From: an uncultured Clostridia bacterium
Lineage (GTDB): Bacteria; Bacillota; Clostridia; Oscillospirales; Acutalibacteraceae
Assembly: GCA_946493765.1 (NCBI GenBank)
Contig: CAMMAZ010000003.1
Location: 1 to 64,000 of the forward strand
Length of the DNA stretch: 64,000 nucleotides
Reading direction: 5' to 3'
Made by a program: the position numbers and the translations under genes. How positions within the stretch are numbered: position 1 is the stretch's first letter; each line of letters opens with the position of its first letter. The notes below the pieces were generated by a model. It was given only the letters and a program-made list of their open reading frames with translations. It searched no databases and was not told the DNA's origin. This document shows, piece by piece, positions 5,211-18,941 of the stretch.

Positions 5211-6365
5211 TTACCGATCGACCACCTTTGCCCGGTACAACCGGCAGTCATGCGGCGCGATCTCAACAATATGCAATCCGTTTTTCACTTTTGTCTGTTC
5301 GCCGTTCCAAAGGTCGGTGAGCAGCAGTGTTTTTCCCGTGCTTTCAGACAGGCCTAACAAATCCAGTTTCAAATTGCAGCAGTACATATTGGTCGGATCA
5401 TCCGTGAAATTAAACATGCCGATGGCAAAATCGCCGTTTTCCAACAGTTTCACATAGATCGGCCATTCATTTTTGTAATCATCCGAAAAACTCAAAGGCT
5501 CTGCAACGCTGTAAGGCTGGTTATAGGCTTTGTCCTGATTAATGGCAATGACGTCTTTATTCATTAAAATCTTCTTTGTCGCATCATTCATATTGCGAAT
5601 ATCGCAGCCGATCATCAACGGCGACCCCAGCAGCGCCCAAAGCGAAAAATGTGTTTTATATTCCGTATCAGTGCAGCCGGTCAGTCCCACATTTCCGTTG
5701 CCATACATGCCGACGATCAGCATATCCATATCAAAAAAGCAATTTTTCCCACTGTATTTGATCGATTGATCTGCCAGCATCGCAAGCTCCCGCAAAGACG
5801 TCCAGGTATCGTAAATATCCTCGGTCGACCGCCACATATTGGCGCCGGTGGTTTTGATCCATTTTTTCGTTTCGTCCTTACCGCAGGAGCAGGCGCTGAA
5901 CAGAATATCCCGCCCGCAGTTGGCGAGCGCAGCGCCCATGCGTTTATACAGCACATCACCGGACACCGAACCGGGTTTAAAGCAGTAGTCATACTTTAAA
6001 AAGTCAATGCCCCACTGTGCAAATGTCTGCGCGTCGACAAATTCATGTTCAAAGCTCGCAGGATATCCGGCACAGGTGATCATACCCGCACAGCTGTATA
6101 TTCCAAACTTCAGTCCCTTTTGATGCACATAATCGGCAACCGCTTTCATCCCGTTGGGAAATTTCTGTCGGTCCGGCACCAGTTTGCCGTCGGCGTCCCG
6201 TTGGCGCTCGGCCCAGCAGTCGTCGATCACCAGGTAATTGTATCCGCAGTCTAAAAGGCCGGTGTCAACCATAGCATCCGCCATTTCTTTGATCATTTTT
6301 TCGTTGATTTCACGCCCGAATGTGTTCCAGGAATTCCATCCCATCGGAGGTGTTTCACAAATCAT
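5211..6365 (-). CDS. Alpha-galactosidase, GH27 family
   Basis: Removes terminal alpha-galactosyl residues, for example from galactomannan or melibiose-type sugars. The 384 residues open with the GH27 signature PPMGWNSWNTF. The nucleophile is D126 in FLKYDYC and the acid/base is D183 in WRSTEDIYD, judged by alignment in the mind with human alpha-galactosidase A. No signal peptide is seen, so it acts inside the cell on imported oligosaccharides. A mannoside operon lies 3 kb away. The protein is close to a minimal GH27 with a short C-terminal beta domain. Confidence 0.93.
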   Translation of the reverse strand: MICETPPMGWNSWNTFGREINEKMIKEMADAMVDTGLLDCGYNYLVIDDCWAERQRDADGKLVPDRQKFPNGMKAVADYVHQKGLKFGIYSCAGMITCAGYPASFEHEFVDAQTFAQWGIDFLKYDYCFKPGSVSGDVLYKRMGAALANCGRDILFSACSCGKDETKKWIKTTGANMWRSTEDIYDTWTSLRELAMLADQSIKYSGKNCFFDMDMLIVGMYGNGNVGLTGCTDTEYKTHFSLWALLGSPLMIGCDIRNMNDATKKILMNKDVIAINQDKAYNQPYSVAEPLSFSDDYKNEWPIYVKLLENGDFAIGMFNFTDDPTNMYCCNLKLDLLGLSESTGKTLLLTDLWNGEQTKVKNGLHIVEIAPHDCRLYRAKVVDR

Positions 6366-6425
6366 TACAATCTCCCCCTTTTCTTTTTATTTTATATAGA
6401 TTGTTCTGCAAAATACGATTTACAA

Positions 6426-7250
6426 TCAGGCTTTAACCAACCGGCCAGTCACTGAAAAAACTAAAAATACTGCTAAATTGGCAACGACGATGGTGGAACC
6501 GGGCGGCAGTGCAAACAAATGCGCGGCCACAAATCCCGCCAGCACACAAAACACCGAAACGACCGCCGCACACACCACTACCTTTTTAAAGCTTTTAAAA
6601 ACCCGCATCGATGTGAGCGCCGGAAAAATAATTAAACTGGAAATCAAAAGCGTGCCCATGATGCGCATGCCGACCACAACCATGATCGCCGTGAGCAGCG
6701 CGACCAACATGTTATAGGCCTTCACATTGGTACCGGTCGCCCGGACAAAATCCTCATCAAAGGTCGCCGCCATGATTTTATTGTATAAAAGAATAAACAT
6801 GACAATGACCGCCACGGAAACGCCGATACTGATATACAAATCCGTGTCGGTCACCAATAAAATGGAGCCGAACATAAAATCATTGATGTCAATATCGGTT
6901 CCGCCGCTTAAGGAAATGGCGATCATGCCGATGGCAATGGCGCTGCTGGAAATGATCGCAATCGCCGCATCCCCTTTGACACTGCTGTTTTCACTGATCT
7001 TTAACAGAAAAAACGCAGCGATAATCACCACTGGAATCGAAAAATAAAGCGGTGTGAAATTAAGCGCCAACGCGATCGCCATCGCACCGAATCCGACGTG
7101 GGACAACCCGTCGCCGATCATGCTGTAGCGTTTTAAAACCAGGCAAACACCGAGCAACGCCGCCGACAGCGCCACCAAAACGCCGACCAAAATCGCACGG
7201 CGGATAAATCCATAGGAAAACATCTGCACAATAAAATCAATCAATTTCAA
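6426..7250 (-). CDS. znuB: ZnuB-like zinc ABC transporter permease
   Basis: Membrane subunit of a metal-chelate ABC-3 importer, 274 residues with about eight to nine hydrophobic helices. The conserved stretch GLSHVGFGAMAIAL near residues 48-61 is typical of ZnuB/MntB permeases. The annotated start is a TTG at 7250; a second TTG at 7244 is better spaced from GAAAGGA, so the real protein may be two residues shorter. Third in the fur-znuA-znuC-znuB run, 14 bases after znuC. Confidence 0.9.
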   Translation of the reverse strand: MKLIDFIVQMFSYGFIRRAILVGVLVALSAALLGVCLVLKRYSMIGDGLSHVGFGAMAIALALNFTPLYFSIPVVIIAAFFLLKISENSSVKGDAAIAIISSSAIAIGMIAISLSGGTDIDINDFMFGSILLVTDTDLYISIGVSVAVIVMFILLYNKIMAATFDEDFVRATGTNVKAYNMLVALLTAIMVVVGMRIMGTLLISSLIIFPALTSMRVFKSFKKVVVCAAVVSVFCVLAGFVAAHLFALPPGSTIVVANLAVFLVFSVTGRLVKA

Positions 7251-7264
7251 ATTCCTTTCTCTCG

Positions 7265-7963
7265 CTAGCCTTTTAAAAAAGCTCTGCCCGGCGCGCTGTT
7301 GACATAATCGTCCCTGCTGCCGAAAAACTGCACCGTCTGATCCATATGCAGGATTTTGTTCGCATATAAAACGGCGGCATGAATATCATGCGACACCATC
7401 ACAATCGCAACGCCTTGTTGCTGGTTGAGCCGTTTTACAATGTCATACATCTCCTGCGTGACCTTCGGATCCAGTCCTGCGACCGGTTCGTCCAGCACGA
7501 GCAGTTTTCCCGCCGAACAGATCGCGCGTGCCAGCAGCGTGCGCTGCTGCTGCCCGCCGGACAGATCGCAATAGGGTTTATCTTTTAAATCTAAAATATT
7601 CAGCTGCCGCATGCTTTCCAGTGCGGCTTGCTTGTCTTTTTTCCGGTAAAACGGGAAAATCCCGCGCTTGGACAGCCGGCCGGACAACACCACTTCATAA
7701 ACCGACGCCGGGAAATCATTGCGCACATTTTTATATTGCGGCAGATAACCGATGTCCCGCCTTGTCATCGGCGGAATCAAATGGATTTTGCCGGATTTTA
7801 ACGGCACCAAAGACAATAAGCCTTTGATCACGGTGGATTTACCGGCTCCGTTTTCCCCGACAATACAAAGATAGTCTCCGGCTTCAACGGTGAAATTCAC
7901 ATCATGCACGGCATAAACGCCGTCGTAACTGATGCTGACGTTTTCAAATGCAACAAGCGGCAT
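7265..7963 (-). CDS. znuC: ZnuC-like zinc ABC transporter ATPase
   Basis: ATP-hydrolysing subunit of the metal importer, 232 residues. Walker A GENGAGKST lies near residues 37-45, the signature LSGGQQQR near 138-145 and Walker B LLVLDEP shortly after, followed by the switch His in MVSHD. The gene begins four bases after the znuA stop. The substrate is judged from the His-rich binding protein beside it; manganese remains possible. Confidence 0.92.
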   Translation of the reverse strand: MPLVAFENVSISYDGVYAVHDVNFTVEAGDYLCIVGENGAGKSTVIKGLLSLVPLKSGKIHLIPPMTRRDIGYLPQYKNVRNDFPASVYEVVLSGRLSKRGIFPFYRKKDKQAALESMRQLNILDLKDKPYCDLSGGQQQRTLLARAICSAGKLLVLDEPVAGLDPKVTQEMYDIVKRLNQQQGVAIVMVSHDIHAAVLYANKILHMDQTVQFFGSRDDYVNSAPGRAFLKG

Positions 7964-12331: not shown

Positions 12332-12988
12332 TTACAGGCATTTTCGCGCTGTTAAAATGCTGGTGTTTTCCCATTCCCGCACCAGACACACCTTTTGAAA
12401 ACCGGCGGCGTGCAAAAGTGTCTGCTCGGTGTTGGCGGTCAGCGGGATATCGTAATGATAAAGCACATTATCCTGCAAATGCTCCTGCTTTCGCAGGCGG
12501 GCAAGCTCGTCCTGAAAATAGCGTTCCCTTTCGGGCGTTTTGCAGGTGTAATCCCCGTTGATGAACACGCCGCTGTTTTTTAAAGCCTTGAAAACTTTTT
12601 GGTAAAGCGTCAGCTTTTGCGACGCATTCCAGTGATGCAGCGAATAGGTGGACAGCACAACGTCATAATCACTCGCAAACGGCAGGTCAAAATAAGAACC
12701 GCAGATTAATTCGATTTCCTTTTTTGGAAACTTTTCCTTTAGTTTTTGCAGCATGCCGGCCGATAAATCCACGCCGGTCACCCGCATGCCGGGATATTTT
12801 GCAAACAACCCTTCCAGTTCAATGCCGGTGCCGCAGCCGATATCCAGCAGTGAAAAATCTTTGCCGGTTGGCTGCACACAGTCTGTGATTTCCCGGTAGA
12901 ATGCGTCCAGTTCCAGGTCTTGCAGCATATGCGCGTCATAAATATCGGCTCTTCTATTAAAAAACGCATCCATTTCTTCCAACGCCAT
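12332..12988 (-). CDS. Class I SAM-dependent methyltransferase
   Basis: 218 residues with the SAM-binding motif LLDIGCGTGIELEG (47-60), an acidic post-I residue in VTGVDLSAGML, and STYSLHHW as the motif IV region. The family includes small-molecule and RNA methyltransferases; nothing visible fixes the substrate. Its ATG directly follows the acetyltransferase stop, so the two form an operon under the structured leader at 13485-13684. Confidence 0.85.
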   Translation of the reverse strand: MALEEMDAFFNRRADIYDAHMLQDLELDAFYREITDCVQPTGKDFSLLDIGCGTGIELEGLFAKYPGMRVTGVDLSAGMLQKLKEKFPKKEIELICGSYFDLPFASDYDVVLSTYSLHHWNASQKLTLYQKVFKALKNSGVFINGDYTCKTPERERYFQDELARLRKQEHLQDNVLYHYDIPLTANTEQTLLHAAGFQKVCLVREWENTSILTARKCL

Positions 12989-13459
12989 TTAGATTGCCTC
13001 CCCACTCTCTGCGGTGTAAGCGCCGATATCGTCGCCGTCTTCTGTTTTTTCCAGACCGAAATACTGCCAGCCGTATTTTTCATAATAGCCTTTAAGATCG
13101 GTGCAAAGGTAGAGCCTTTTGAATCCAAGTTTACGCGCTTCGCATCTTCCATGCGCTAAAAGCTTCGCCCCAAGCGCGTTGCCTCGTTTGTCCGCTTCGA
13201 TAAACAGCGCGCAAAGCCACGGCTTTAAATCCTGCCGCTGCATAAAGTCGTTTTCGATCAGTCCAAAACTGCCGATAATGCGGTCCTGCTGCAGGAGCAG
13301 ATACCAGCGCGGCAGTGGCTGCGGCGTCTCGATACTTTCTTTGATGGACGTTGCATAAATTTTTCTGTCGATGCCCCATTTGGAGGCAAAATAATCTGCC
13401 GCTTTATCCAGCATTTCGGGATGTTCCCGCAGATTGATGATTTGCATTTGTGCTTGCAT
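12989..13459 (-). CDS. GNAT-family N-acetyltransferase
   Basis: 156 residues with the acetyl-CoA motif A pattern EADKRGNALGAKLL (about 88-101) and a C-terminal YYEKYGWQYFG typical of the fold. Acceptor unknown. It follows a terminator-tipped RNA leader by about 25 bases and is directly joined to the methyltransferase gene. The ribosome site AAAGGAAAG lies before the ATG. Confidence 0.85.
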   Translation of the reverse strand: MQAQMQIINLREHPEMLDKAADYFASKWGIDRKIYATSIKESIETPQPLPRWYLLLQQDRIIGSFGLIENDFMQRQDLKPWLCALFIEADKRGNALGAKLLAHGRCEARKLGFKRLYLCTDLKGYYEKYGWQYFGLEKTEDGDDIGAYTAESGEAI

Positions 13460-13484: not shown

Positions 13485-13516
13485 ATAAAAAATCCTTTTC
13501 CCTGTCGGAAAAGGAT
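13485..13516 (-). terminator. Terminator ending the structured RNA
   Basis: 10-bp stem (13492-13501 with 13507-13516) followed on the minus strand by TTTTTTATTTTATTTT. It lies 32 bases before the acetyltransferase ATG, so it either ends a free RNA or acts as an attenuator. Confidence 0.85.
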
Positions 13517-13684
13517 GATAACGCAAACTGGCTCCGCAAGACAGCATTCTTGCGACGCGGCATTCTTTCTCGATCATCCAAATTCCAACAAAAACACAGC
13601 CCGGTTTTCCAAAACCGAACAGCCTGCGATATTTTCTTTTGAAAAATGGATCACCGAATCATTCTGCCGCCTCCGTTTATTATT
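13485..13684 (-). ncRNA. Structured RNA: leader/riboswitch candidate or 6S-like RNA
   Basis: A minus-strand transcript of about 200 nt is bounded by a good promoter and an intrinsic terminator. By hand folding: an outer stem 13518-13523 with 13674-13680 (one bulge); a long rod closed by 13557-13562 with 13665-13670, continued by 13576-13580/13647-13651, 13583-13586/13641-13644, 13587-13594/13633-13640 and 13595-13599/13624-13628, and capped by a hairpin at 13602-13617; a side hairpin 13535-13540/13549-13554. I recognise no known class. It could regulate the acetyltransferase gene or act by itself. Confidence 0.55.
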
Positions 13685-13690
13685 TTTTTC

Positions 13691-13719
13691 ATCATAACAC
13701 AAAACCCGCCGTTTAACAA
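13691..13719 (-). promoter_or_regulatory. Promoter of the structured RNA
   Basis: Minus-strand TTGTTA (13714-13719), 17-base spacer, TATGAT (13691-13696). The predicted start is near 13684. Confidence 0.7.
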
Positions 13720-14360: not shown

Positions 14361-14394
14361 ACGCCGGAGGGAAATTCCTCCGGCGTTTTTTTAT
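14361..14394. terminator. Terminator, DUF2284/bceB
   Basis: 10-bp stem (14361-14370 with 14377-14386) followed by seven T on the plus strand, between convergent genes. Confidence 0.9.
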
Positions 14395-16382
14395 GATTTG
14401 GAACTGACGATTTTATAATAAGCTTTTGCCGTGAGGGAATAGATCACCGCATACAGCAGCGCGAACAACAAAAAGCTTGCAAGGGTGCACACGGCATACA
14501 GCATTGTGTTGGAAAGGTTGAACAAACGCAGCAGTCTTGCAATGACCGGAAACGCAAAGGCAATATGCACCCCCGCCGTGACCAGCGGCAGGAAAAACAC
14601 CGTTAGAATCTGCGAATGGATCGTTTTGCGCGTTTCCTTTTTGCTCAGTCCCACCTTCTGCATGATCTGGAACCGTTCCTGATCGTCGTATCCTTCGGAA
14701 ATCTGTTTGTAATAAATGATCAGGATCGTCGCCATGGTGAACAGCACGCTTAAAAACAGACCGATAAAGAACAGGCCGCCGTAGCTGCCCAAAAAGTCGG
14801 ATTTGGAATTTTCCCGGCTTTGAATATAGACCCCCATGTCGGCATCGGTTAAGTCGTCCGCAATGGCTCTGTGCACTGCGATCTCGGTTTGCGCATCCGT
14901 GTCCAGATCGAACCGGTATTCATAATAAATATCGGTGGCAAGTTCCCCATAGTTTTGCGTTTGCAGGTCGGAAAGGGTTGCTAAAACCTGTGCGTTTTGC
15001 ACCACGACATCGTAGGTATCAAAAGCGCTTTGCGATCCGATTTCTTCACCGTCCAGCGCGGACGTGACCTGAAAAGTTTTATCAAAAACCGTTAGGGTGT
15101 CGCTTGTGTATTCCCGATCCGGCGACAGCACGATCACTTCATCGGTATCTAAAACAGCGGACTGCCCTGTTAGCCAATTATAATCTTCGGCAGTTAGAAA
15201 ATTCAAAATGATAAAGTTGTTCGAGCTGACGCTTGTCATCACATCCGAATCTTCGGCGACCTTGAAATTGGAACCGTCCCGATAAGCGGAAAAAGAAAGA
15301 TAGGAAAAGTTTTGCAGATTTTGAACCTCTAAATTTTTCTCCAACAGGTTTTCCTCCACGATGCGTTCCACTTTCTCGCAGTTTTGCGGCGTTACTTCCC
15401 GCAGCGTGATGTTGATGTCTTTTGGATAAATGCTGTTTAAAATGTCGTCCATGCCGATCCAAAGCGACACGGTGGAGGAGATCATGACCAAAACCATGGT
15501 GGACAAAATGCAAATATTAGAAAGCCCCACCGCGTTTTGTTTCATGCGGTATAAAAGGCCGGAAACGCTGATGAAATGCCGCGGTTTATAATAATAAGCC
15601 TTATTTTTACGCAGCAGCTTCAAAATTGCAATACTGCCTGCTGTGAACACCATGTAGGTGCCGATAATCACCAAAATCACGGCAATAAAGAAATAGCTCA
15701 TAGCGGCGACCGGATTTTCCACAGTGATCGAAATCGTGTATGCCGCAATCAAGCATCCAAATCCCAAAATCGCCAAAATCCATTTGGTTTTGGGTTCTTT
15801 TTCCCCTACATTCCCGCCTTTTAAAAGCTCCACCGGCTTTGCAAGGTGAATCTGCCGCATGGAATTTAAAAAAATCAGCAAAAAAATCGCGCAAAACAGC
15901 AAAAGTGTCGCAGTAAGGGCATAGCCCGAAACATAAAAGTTTAGCGTGACCTCAATATCCAGCATGTAACTGACGAGCAGATACATCAGTTTATCCAGCA
16001 CCATGCCGCAGATCAGACCGAAAGCGAGACTGAAAAGCGCAATATAGGCCGTTTCCCAGAACACGACTTTGGAAATATGCTTTTTCTCCATGCCGAGGAT
16101 GTTATAAAGGCCGAATTCTTTTTTGCGGCGTTTCATTAAAAAGCTGTTGGTGTAGAAAAGGAAGATCACGGCGAAAATAGCGGTCACCCACACGCCGAAA
16201 CCCAATGTGGTAATGAGTGTGTTCGCGCCGCGCATGCCTTCCAGCCCTTTGTTTTTATACAGCGAACAGATGATATAAAACATGGCGACGGTGAAAATAC
16301 AGGTCAGAATATATGGCAGGTAGATCTTCCCGTTTTTCTTGATGTTGGTGGCTGCAAGTTTTGGATAAAACAATTTGTTCAT
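14391..16382 (-). CDS. BceB-type ABC transporter permease
   Basis: Large FtsX-type permease of a peptide-antibiotic sensing and detoxification module. 663 residues; about ten membrane helices with the large extracellular domain (roughly residues 305-520) between helices 7 and 8 that defines the Bce group and is thought to touch the antibiotic complex. Overlaps the ATPase gene by four bases. Works with the BceS-type kinase encoded upstream, which lacks its own sensor domain. Confidence 0.92.
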   Translation of the reverse strand: MNKLFYPKLAATNIKKNGKIYLPYILTCIFTVAMFYIICSLYKNKGLEGMRGANTLITTLGFGVWVTAIFAVIFLFYTNSFLMKRRKKEFGLYNILGMEKKHISKVVFWETAYIALFSLAFGLICGMVLDKLMYLLVSYMLDIEVTLNFYVSGYALTATLLLFCAIFLLIFLNSMRQIHLAKPVELLKGGNVGEKEPKTKWILAILGFGCLIAAYTISITVENPVAAMSYFFIAVILVIIGTYMVFTAGSIAILKLLRKNKAYYYKPRHFISVSGLLYRMKQNAVGLSNICILSTMVLVMISSTVSLWIGMDDILNSIYPKDINITLREVTPQNCEKVERIVEENLLEKNLEVQNLQNFSYLSFSAYRDGSNFKVAEDSDVMTSVSSNNFIILNFLTAEDYNWLTGQSAVLDTDEVIVLSPDREYTSDTLTVFDKTFQVTSALDGEEIGSQSAFDTYDVVVQNAQVLATLSDLQTQNYGELATDIYYEYRFDLDTDAQTEIAVHRAIADDLTDADMGVYIQSRENSKSDFLGSYGGLFFIGLFLSVLFTMATILIIYYKQISEGYDDQERFQIMQKVGLSKKETRKTIHSQILTVFFLPLVTAGVHIAFAFPVIARLLRLFNLSNTMLYAVCTLASFLLFALLYAVIYSLTAKAYYKIVSSKS

Positions 16383-17143
16383 CTTCTCTCACCGCCCGTT
16401 GTGATCACCGTTAAGGTGTCGGAAATTTTCTGATACATTTCGTCCGTCGTGCCGGTGCCTTTATAAATCTGGTGATAAACTTCGCCGTCTTTGATAAACA
16501 AAACCCGTTTGGCATGGCTTGCCGCTTTGATGGAATGGGTGACCATTAAAATGGTTTGTCCGTCGTTGTTCAATTGTGTGAATAGTTGCAGCAAACCGTC
16601 GGTCGCGCGGGAATCCAACGCACCGGTCGGCTCGTCGGCCAACAGCAGCATCGGATTGGTGATCACCGCCCGTGCGACGGCGGCACGCTGTTTTTGACCG
16701 CCGGAAACCTCATAGGGAAATTTTTGCAGCAAATCGGCAATTTCCAGACGCTGCGCCAGCGGTTTTAGGCGGCGCTCCATTTCTTTGTAGTTCGTTCCGG
16801 ACAGCACCAGCGGCAAAAGGATGTTATCCCGCAGTGAAAAGGTGTCCAAAAGGTTGAAATCCTGAAACACAAAACCCAGATGCTCCCGCCGGAACGCGGA
16901 AATTTCTTTTTCACTGATGGATAACAGGCTTTTCTCATTCAACAGCACTTCCCCGCTGGTCGGTTTATCCAGCGCCGCCAAAATATTCAATAGCGTGGTT
17001 TTGCCGGAGCCGGATTCGCCCATGATGGCGACATATTCCCCCTCCTCCACCGAAAAACTGATGTTTTTGAGCGCTTCAACGGTGTTGCCGCCAAAACGGG
17101 TGGTATAGACTTTGCTTAAATCGCCCACTCTTAAGATTGCCAT
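16379..17143 (-). CDS. BceA-type ABC transporter ATPase
   Basis: ATP-binding subunit of the Bce module, 254 residues. Walker A GESGSGKTT (42-50), signature VSGGQKQR near 145, Walker B LLLADEPTGALD and the switch His in MVTHS are all present. First gene after the BceR operator and an extended -10, so it should be induced by the partner two-component system when the target antibiotic is present. Confidence 0.93.
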   Translation of the reverse strand: MAILRVGDLSKVYTTRFGGNTVEALKNISFSVEEGEYVAIMGESGSGKTTLLNILAALDKPTSGEVLLNEKSLLSISEKEISAFRREHLGFVFQDFNLLDTFSLRDNILLPLVLSGTNYKEMERRLKPLAQRLEIADLLQKFPYEVSGGQKQRAAVARAVITNPMLLLADEPTGALDSRATDGLLQLFTQLNNDGQTILMVTHSIKAASHAKRVLFIKDGEVYHQIYKGTGTTDEMYQKISDTLTVITTGGERR

Positions 17144-17186
17144 AACTGATGTTCCTTTCTCAAGTTATTGTTTTGATTGTGGGTTT

Positions 17187-17195
17187 AGTATAACA
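17187..17195 (-). promoter_or_regulatory. bceAB promoter, extended -10
   Basis: Minus-strand TGTTATACT, an extended -10 element, about 45 bases before the bceA-type start codon. Confidence 0.6.
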
Positions 17196-17246
17196 GAAAG
17201 CCGGAATGCGCTGCCATCGATTTGGCTTACATTTCCGGCGATTTTC

Positions 17247-17260
17247 TTACATTTTTGTAA
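17247..17260 (-). promoter_or_regulatory. BceR-type operator
   Basis: TTACA-TTTT-TGTAA is an exact match to the published BceR-family pattern TNACA-N4-TGTAA. It starts just past the kinase gene and about 50 bases upstream of the bceAB -10. A second half-site TTACA lies near 17227. Confidence 0.75.
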
Positions 17261-17263
17261 GGA

Positions 17264-18268
17264 TTATTCGATTGTGAGCTGCTCGCGTTCCAGAGAAATG
17301 AACACCTTTGTGCCTTTCGACACCTGCGATTCAAAACGCAGATTGTGCGAGAGCTTGTCTAAAATTCTTTTGCACAGATAAAGGCCGATGCCTGTCGCTT
17401 TTTTATCCGTGCGGCCGTTATAACCGGTGTAGCCCTTGTCGCAGATACGCGGCAGATCCTCCGGTGCGATACCGATACCGGTGTCGGCAATCACCAGTTC
17501 CCCGTTTTGTTCAAAAATAGAGATGGTGCCCGTTGCGGTATATTTTAATGCATTGGACAGCAACTGTTCGAGCACAAACACAAACCATTTTTCATCGGTC
17601 ACCACCGTTTTGCCGGTGTCCCGGATATCCACCCTGATCTTTTTGGCGATAAACAACGGCGCATATTTTCGCACAGCCTGTTTGACCATATCGTCCAACG
17701 CGTATTCCCGGAACACAAAGTCGGTAAAGCGGCTGCCGAGCCGCAGATAGGACAGCACCATTTGCACATACTGCTCGGTTTTAAACAATTCCGCCAACAG
17801 CTGCGCGTTTTGTGTTGCATCTTCCGACTGCAAAATCAGGCGCATGGCGGCGATCGGCGTTTTGATCTGGTGCGCCCAAAGGGTATAATAATCGATCATT
17901 TCCCGATAGGCCTTATCCGCTTTGCTCTTGTTTTCGACTTTATCGGAAAAAAGGCTTTCGATCAAACAAACATAATCCTGTTCGATCAAATTTTTCGGCA
18001 CAGGCAGATGATCGGTCGAATATAAAATTTCCTTTTTTAAACCGGCCAGCTGCTGATGCTTGCGGTAATACCGTGTGAAATCGAATGCGGTGAAAACGGC
18101 GGTCACAAACACACATAAAAGCAGTGCATAAAAAACAGCGCTCGTGTCCAGCCGGAAAAGGAAAAACACCGTTAGGCTAAGGGCAAAACACAAAACGGCG
18201 ACCGCAATGGATTTGATATGCTGTTTTAGATATTGCCCGGCAACAGAAAAAACATTACTTTTCTCCAT
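17264..18268 (-). CDS. BceS-type intramembrane-sensing histidine kinase
   Basis: 334 residues. Two membrane helices (about 18-38 and 44-63) with almost no outside loop, then a dimerisation helix with phospho-acceptor H133 in LWAHQIKTPI, and an ATPase domain with NALKYT, DTGIGI and TGIGLYLCK boxes. Kinases of this type take the signal from the BceB-type transporter rather than from the antibiotic itself. Overlaps the regulator gene by 14 bases. Confidence 0.93.
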   Translation of the reverse strand: MEKSNVFSVAGQYLKQHIKSIAVAVLCFALSLTVFFLFRLDTSAVFYALLLCVFVTAVFTAFDFTRYYRKHQQLAGLKKEILYSTDHLPVPKNLIEQDYVCLIESLFSDKVENKSKADKAYREMIDYYTLWAHQIKTPIAAMRLILQSEDATQNAQLLAELFKTEQYVQMVLSYLRLGSRFTDFVFREYALDDMVKQAVRKYAPLFIAKKIRVDIRDTGKTVVTDEKWFVFVLEQLLSNALKYTATGTISIFEQNGELVIADTGIGIAPEDLPRICDKGYTGYNGRTDKKATGIGLYLCKRILDKLSHNLRFESQVSKGTKVFISLEREQLTIE

Positions 18269-18941
18269 GTTCGTTTAACAGATACCCCGTTCCCTTTTTG
18301 GTTTGAATCCAATCGGTCATGCCGATCCCGTCCAGCTTTTTGCGCAAGCGGGTGACATTGACCGTCAACGTGTTTTCATCCACAAAGCTGTCGGTCTCCC
18401 ACAGCCTTGTCATCAACGCGTCCCGTGTGACGACCTTCCCTTTGTTTTCAAACAGCGCCTGTAGGATCCGATTTTCATTTTTGGTCAGTTCAACCGTTTG
18501 CCCGCCGAAAGTCAGCTGCGCGCTGCCGGTGTTCAGGATCGCTTCTCCGCACTGCATGAAATCCGACTGCCCGCCAAAATCATAGGTGCGCCGCAAAACG
18601 GCTTTGACCTTGGCGGTCAAAACATTCAAATCAAACGGTTTGGCAATGAAATCATCGCCGCCGTGCTCTAACGCCATGACAATGTTCATGTTGTCGGCGG
18701 CGGAAGAGATAAAAATCACCGGCACGTTAGAAAGTTTACGGATTTCGCCGCACCAGTGATACCCGTTATAAAACGGGAGCGTAATATCCATCAAAACCAA
18801 CTGCGGCGAAAATTCCACAAACGTCTGCAGCACATGCTGAAAGTCCCGGACACACTGGGCAATATATCCCCAGGACTGAATGTGTTTTTGCACAGCAGAC
18901 GCAATCACCGCGTCATCTTCTACGATCAGGACTTTATACAT
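18255..18941 (-). CDS. BceR-type response regulator
   Basis: OmpR-family regulator of 228 residues: receiver domain with phospho-acceptor D52 in VLMDITLP and acidic pair E8/D9/D10, then a winged-helix DNA-binding domain whose recognition region reads VDENTLTVNVTRLRKKL. Expected to bind the TNACA-N4-TGTAA site before the ABC genes. It follows the glycerophosphotransferase gene by 25 bases, so some read-through is possible. Confidence 0.93.
   Translation of the reverse strand: MYKVLIVEDDAVIASAVQKHIQSWGYIAQCVRDFQHVLQTFVEFSPQLVLMDITLPFYNGYHWCGEIRKLSNVPVIFISSAADNMNIVMALEHGGDDFIAKPFDLNVLTAKVKAVLRRTYDFGGQSDFMQCGEAILNTGSAQLTFGGQTVELTKNENRILQALFENKGKVVTRDALMTRLWETDSFVDENTLTVNVTRLRKKLDGIGMTDWIQTKKGTGYLLNEHGEK

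Follow-up and report, generated by a model that had tools for sequence, protein, structure and literature searches.

A candidate ribosome-mediated transcription attenuator upstream of a GNAT-methyltransferase operon and its RNA family in Clostridia

The window analysed here (the whole stretch of 64,000 nucleotides from an uncultured Clostridia bacterium) encodes a structured leader RNA that is very probably a ribosome-mediated transcription attenuator of a GNAT-methyltransferase operon (13459-12332), induced by antibiotics acting at the peptidyl-transferase centre (PTC). We favour this reading because of a conserved upstream ORF (uORF), a covarying rod, a native-specific pairing between regions 2 and 3, the outcome of folding with the uORF masked and the company of ABC-F genes, and because vmlR and cplR, for which the mechanism is experimentally established, share the design. 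Without the drug, the ribosome would read the Met-Ile-Arg uORF and leave quickly, regions 1 and 2 would pair to form the rod, the terminator would form and transcription would end near 13485, giving an RNA of ~200 nt. A PTC antibiotic (lincosamide, pleuromutilin, streptogramin A or similar) would instead stall the ribosome on the uORF. The stalled ribosome would cover region 1, so that region 2 could pair with region 3 as an antiterminator; no terminator would then form and the RNA polymerase would read into the acetyltransferase and methyltransferase genes, whose products probably act on the drug or give protection in some other way. The anatomy, the family, the covariation of both alternative pairings, the conservation of the uORF and the sharing of the leader with Lsa-like ABC-F genes are supported by the sequences themselves; the stalled-ribosome trigger, the antibiotic as its cause, the identity of that antibiotic and the function of both enzymes are what we infer.

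Anatomy of the leader

The earlier note on this DNA described a promoter, an outer stem, a rod with a perfect hairpin, a side hairpin and a terminator before an acetyltransferase gene, and gave no strand. All these elements are present, on the minus strand of the window (Table 1). Two features were absent from that description, namely a mini-ORF with a Shine-Dalgarno sequence (13674-13651) and the complementarity between the 3' strand of the rod and the 5' arm of the terminator. The RNA is predicted to start at ~13684 and, with termination near 13485, to be ~200 nt long. Minus-strand RNA 13684-13478 folds into the outer stem, the long imperfect rod with its perfect apical hairpin, the side hairpin and the terminator at -74.3 kcal/mol, compared with -52.5 ± 4.7 kcal/mol for dinucleotide shuffles (n = 200), none of which was as stable (z = -4.66). 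The plus-strand RNA presented a weaker fold (z = -2.06) and was rejected. Promoter-like matches in the stretch are not above chance (2 found, 2.3 expected), so the promoter assignment rests on position; L140, the second leader of the same genome, has TTGACA-17-TATGAT at the equivalent relative place. At the other end, the intrinsic terminator (13516-13492) is established directly upstream of the main gene, the start of which (13459) is located about 26-32 bases beyond the U-tract.

Table 1. Features of the leader and of the operon behind it (positions in the window).
Feature	Position	Strand	Basis
Promoter-like TTGTTA-17-TATGAT, extended -10 (TG)	13691..13719	-	Sequence motif
uORF Shine-Dalgarno, GGAGGCGG	13667..13674	-	Sequence
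uORF ATG ATT CGG TGA (Met-Ile-Arg-stop)	13651..13662	-	ATG at this point of the alignment in 19 leaders
Region 1, 5' strand of rod base, overlapping the uORF	13641..13658	-	Pairing analysis, rod covariation
Rod (predicted anti-antiterminator), regions 1:2 and apical part	13569..13658	-	Fold; double changes across the family in 21/23 modelled pairs
Perfect apical hairpin of the rod, GTTCGGTTTTGGAAAACCGGGC	13599..13620	-	Helix 4; 7/7 pairs with changes on both sides
Region 2, GTTGGAATTTGGATGATCGAG; partner region 1 or region 3	13569..13589	-	Pairing and masked folding
Side hairpin between regions 2 and 3; would-be antiterminator apex	13531..13558	-	Fold
Region 3, TTATCATCCTTTTCC, terminator 5' arm	13507..13521	-	Pairing and masked folding
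Intrinsic terminator hairpin, then U-tract to about 13485	13492..13516	-	Terminator prediction from sequence
GNAT acetyltransferase, 156 aa, first gene of the operon	12989..13459	-	Acetyltransf_1; model pLDDT 93.9
Class I SAM-dependent methyltransferase, 218 aa, second gene, zero gap to GNAT	12332..12988	-	Homology

Relatives of the leader and their gene company

DNA search of 148 related genomes led to one real homologue (L003), with 72% over about 100 nt. It lies directly 5' of a GNAT gene whose product is 65% identical to the window GNAT in its C-terminal half, bears the uORF ATG ATT CGA TAA (MIR) and has GGACTAT/ATAGTCC in place of GGATGAT/ATCATCC. A T-box reading of AGGTGGCA in L003 was dropped, as this is the Shine-Dalgarno region of the uORF. 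Among the other DNA matches, the one at G000:C45 (L002) is a terminator-like hairpin of the ordinary sort, and the remaining short ones are mostly pieces of terminators or promoters; plasmids and phages gave no DNA match to the leader. A covariance model (R1) built from the window leader and L003 matched L077, directly upstream of an ABC-F gene, while a GNAT-alignment scan of 84,980 species yielded three further leaders (L115, L121 and L125). A second model of six sequences (R2) was run on order-, family- and class-wide samples and, together with the earlier matches, brought the total to 19 leaders, all from Clostridia. Weak R2 matches near 29-32 bits were counted as leaders only when both a uORF and a suitable gene accompanied them; L137, L138 and L142, which have neither, were judged to be chance matches. 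Most GNAT homologues do not have such a leader, and inspection by eye of the regions upstream of about 28 further ones revealed none except L003. A related named locus is found in Clostridiales bacterium 43-6.

Rfam 15 gave no match at the gathering or the relaxed threshold, known riboswitch classes included. The RNA family is new to Rfam and its kind of mechanism is already known, the leader working like the vmlR and cplR attenuators (PMC9226507, PMC10201436), so the remark of the earlier note that the RNA matches no known class holds for Rfam and not for the literature. Regarding its description as an orphan structured RNA with its own promoter and terminator, the structure, promoter and terminator stand; "orphan" does not, since the leader is kept 5' of homologous GNAT and Lsa-like ABC-F genes. 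The stems, whose conservation in relatives had been proposed as the test of the idea, are conserved with covariation across the 19 leaders.

Ten of these leaders are established before Lsa-like ABC-F genes (L077, L125, L132, L134, L135, L136, L139, L140, L141 and L147), six before GNATs (the window, L003, L115, L121, L144 and L145) and one before a P-loop kinase (L133), and two are without an assignable gene (L143 and L146). The genome of the window harbors a second copy, L140 (G000:C24:3107-3208), located before an Lsa-like ABC-F gene and bearing the uORF ATG ATC AGA TAA (MIR). Similarly, genome G811 has two leaders, L147 upstream of an ABC-F gene and L144 upstream of a GNAT gene with a methyltransferase gene behind it. 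In L125 the leader and its Lsa-like ABC-F gene are followed by two P-loop kinase-like genes and then by a GNAT-GNAT fusion with homology to the window GNAT; behind the Lsa-like ABC-F gene of L122 (G268), a single open frame holds homologues of both the window GNAT and the window methyltransferase. With the NCBIfam Lsa model, the ABC-F proteins of L125 and L105 reach 711 and 638 bits, below the strict Lsa cut-off of 750 and well above the general ribosomal-protection cut-off of 380. It is from this gene company that we infer the link of the leader to antibiotics.

The uORF

The Shine-Dalgarno sequence and the three-codon ORF, GGAGGCGGcagaATG ATT CGG TGA (13674-13651), lie within the 5' strand of the rod base. 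The Shine-Dalgarno core in the window is GGAGG, and related leaders harbor an AGG(C/T)G-type purine stretch 5' of the uORF. An ATG is found at about the same aligned place in 19/19 leaders, which are related by descent and should not be read as 19 independent events. The uORF has 2-4 codons in 18 of them, the exception being one of 7 codons (MINVISN). Four leaders encode MIR with four codon spellings, all three stop codons being used; the other peptides are MIG, MIL, MIIR, MIIQ (two), MLIR, MKNR (two), MFIK, MILK, MFLK, MISK, MCSK and MI, besides MINVISN. Since codon spellings and stops vary, and lengths change by whole codons (MINVISN excepted), this pattern speaks for a translated uORF rather than a bare nucleotide motif.

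A translated uORF would also suit an amino-acid starvation attenuator, in which scarcity of charged tRNA would stall the ribosome at the Ile or Arg codons, in the manner of leaders of amino-acid biosynthetic operons. An identical regulatory layout would be expected, and the C-terminal residue is Arg or Lys in 13 of the 19 uORFs. However, these are single codons without runs, the residues vary (MIG, MIL, MIIQ, MI), and the genes behind the leaders encode ABC-F ribosome-protection proteins, GNATs and a P-loop kinase rather than biosynthetic enzymes, which leaves starvation control very improbable.

Alternative pairings

GGATGAT (13579-13573), in the rod-base 3' strand that forms region 2, is the exact reverse complement of ATCATCC (13519-13513), which extends into the terminator 5' arm. 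The predicted 1:2, 2:3 and 3:4 layout is that of a classical ribosome-controlled attenuator. In the alignment of the 19 leaders, 88% of the cells of the 23 rod pairs are paired (69% when shuffled), 81 cells are changed on both sides (27.2 ± 4.1 when shuffled) and the covariation score is 0.59 against 0.25 ± 0.02, with 0/500 shuffles as high and slid controls at ≤0.14; this alignment was fitted to the rod and thus favours it. The region 2:3 pairing was absent from the search model, which makes it a separate test of the antiterminator. Among the 16 terminator-bearing leaders, with region ends drawn by eye, the native region 2 x 3 duplex has a mean of -17.0 kcal/mol, compared with -12.3 for mismatched leaders (0/20,000 permutations as low) and -9.4 for dinucleotide-shuffled partners. 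The pairing is weak in L125, L141 and L145.

Folding was also performed with a ribosome-sized stretch at the start codon barred from pairing and the RNA cut before the terminator 3' arm, and the mean expected number of 2:3 pairs rose from 1.7 to 13.6 (from 0.0 to 15.2 in the window). Barring a control block 40-69 nt downstream gave no comparable gain except in L133, while in L144 the 2:3 pairing is favoured even without a ribosome. In the full-length window RNA with the uORF masked, the antiterminator was not seen and the terminator stayed in the minimum-free-energy fold; therefore the switch must act during transcription. Two leaders, L115 (3351-3480) and L136 (1501-1625), are seemingly without a terminator and region 2 leads directly into the Shine-Dalgarno sequence of the gene that follows, as though the switch here acted on translation only.

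The RNA had also been called riboswitch-like. In form this stands, as it is a cis-acting leader with a terminator just before the gene; a small molecule bound by the rod and apical hairpin would have to promote or block the terminator, and GGGCTT (at the apex) and TTTTGTTGGAA (5' of region 2) are indeed conserved beyond the needs of pairing. Ligand binding is nonetheless most unlikely, because the conserved, translatable uORF in the 5' strand of the rod, maintained in frame with its Shine-Dalgarno sequence, points to the ribosome as the sensor. Moreover, the apical helix is free to vary in sequence (7/7 pairs with double changes), the loop lengths are variable, and a ribosome on region 1 fully accounts for the two-state switch in masked folding. 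Scarcely credible is an independent small RNA, 6S-like or trans-acting, merely upstream of the GNAT gene: it would explain the rod shape and the own promoter and terminator, and the terminated leader would itself be an abundant RNA of ~200 nt, but the place before resistance-type genes, the uORF and the antiterminator are kept across genomes and the canonical 6S RNA lies elsewhere in the genome (G000:C1:122978-123182, 60.8 bits). The 6S-like reading of the earlier note fails on the same ground, and the leader has no match to RF00013 (6S RNA). There is normally one canonical copy of 6S RNA per genome; G032 has two matches above the gathering score (G032:C116:24420-24617 and G032:C191:2678-2855).

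Comparison with known attenuators

In both vmlR and cplR, the uORF is where ribosomes are stalled by antibiotics that act at the peptidyl-transferase centre (PMC9226507, PMC10201436). The vmlR gene of Bacillus subtilis (ARE2 ABC-F) has a 219-nt leader with a three-codon uORF (MIN) and its own Shine-Dalgarno sequence in the first stem-loop, which serves as anti-antiterminator, followed by a middle hairpin and an antiterminator overlapping the intrinsic terminator; a ribosome stalled on the uORF by a lincosamide or pleuromutilin leads to read-through (PMC9226507). The window leader shares this as a likeness of design: a short uORF with a Shine-Dalgarno sequence that is kept among relatives, located inside an anti-antiterminator stem whose 1:2 pairs covary, a middle hairpin (13531..13558) in a position like that of the vmlR pause hairpin SL-2 (PMC9226507), and an alternative antiterminator overlapping the terminator 5' arm, the last being weak in the three leaders named above. 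In contrast, vmlR encodes an ABC-F protein whereas the window leader precedes a GNAT-methyltransferase operon, and a fourth hairpin that sequesters the Shine-Dalgarno sequence of the gene belongs to vmlR.

The cplR gene of Clostridioides difficile (ARE1 ABC-F) has a 212-nt leader in which the first hairpin sequesters a three-codon uORF (MRI) and the terminator adjoins the gene (PMC10201436). It resembles the window leader in its occurrence in Clostridia, the three-codon uORF in the first hairpin and the terminator near the gene. The L077 and L125 terminators carry the Shine-Dalgarno sequence of the gene, like cplR, while that of the window GNAT lies outside the terminator. The cplR uORF consensus (MR[I/M]) differs, and its target is an ABC-F of another subfamily. 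Concerning lsa genes, the lsaA leader has the uORF MAGN (PMC10201436), and the leaders of plasmid lsa(E) (L131:2615-2850) and of a Paenibacillus lsa (L130:3765-3985) show, by eye and folding, a uORF and a rod with an apical hairpin, one strand of the rod being complementary to the terminator arm. Their uORF peptides differ from those of the window family and R2 detects neither L130 nor L131, so the likeness we draw is one of design. Finally, the hflXr (rli80-lmo0762) leader of Listeria monocytogenes is an antibiotic-induced attenuator of a non-ABC-F resistance gene in a genome that also has a lincomycin-induced ABC-F gene, lmo0919 (PMC6310831). The window leader is alike in both respects, its target not being an ABC-F and its genome also having an ABC-F gene behind such a leader, but hflXr has a 14-codon uORF with an RLR motif sensing macrolides and its product is an HflX-like ribosome-splitting protein.

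The operon and a possible common cue

The nearest solved structure to the window GNAT is a Bacteroides fragilis GNAT, 42% identical and titled only N-acetyltransferase domain protein. Homologues of the methyltransferase are located 3' of, or fused to, GNAT homologues in L112, L114, L122 and L124; its PADLOC match (mad2) covers the methyltransferase domain alone. In the open-access papers to which the literature search was limited, no attenuated GNAT or GNAT-methyltransferase operon of this kind was found, which is weak evidence. The leader makes both genes candidate inducible antibiotic-resistance genes whose inducer is directly testable, and the resistance genes of such anaerobes have received little study.

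The window genome and G811 each have an ABC-F copy and a GNAT-with-methyltransferase copy of the leader. There is also a wider reading, to which we give somewhat less than even weight. One attenuator RNA family may have been copied among Lsa-like ABC-F, GNAT, GNAT-methyltransferase and P-loop kinase genes of Clostridia and may answer to one PTC-antibiotic cue, the GNAT-methyltransferase pair being an unrecognised inducible antibiotic-modifying cassette. If so, a single antibiotic of the peptidyl-transferase centre would switch on scattered genes. The covariance model sees the switch independently of the protein and can serve to pick out more candidates for resistance genes that have escaped recognition, such as the P-loop kinase of L133. 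Tolerated uORF peptides in the family include MIR, MIIR, MKNR, MFIK, MILK, MI and others, a range that bears on the sensing of drug-stalled early translation.

In L133/L151 (G492:C33, about 5950-7500) the leader, with the uORF MFIK, is established before the P-loop kinase gene, followed by several GNAT-like genes. This kinase gene appears truncated by an IS-type transposase, and a full-length homologue is present in the L125 operon. L106/L077 (G331:C361) and L132 (G646:C42), from different families, both have the leader with an Lsa-like ABC-F gene at about 96% protein identity, and the flanking genes in G331 resemble a conjugative element (VirB4-like, repetitive membrane protein). The identity across families and the conjugative-looking neighbours suggest that the leader and ABC-F unit moved by horizontal transfer. 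Upstream of a distant GNAT homologue, L055 (G161:C17) has a T-box-like GGGTGGTACCGTGG and then a terminator-like hairpin. Close to the GNAT operon in the window, a permease (663 aa), an ABC ATPase, a histidine kinase and a response regulator lie in a row on the minus strand (14391-18941), which we take to resemble a Bce-type antimicrobial-peptide detoxification module.
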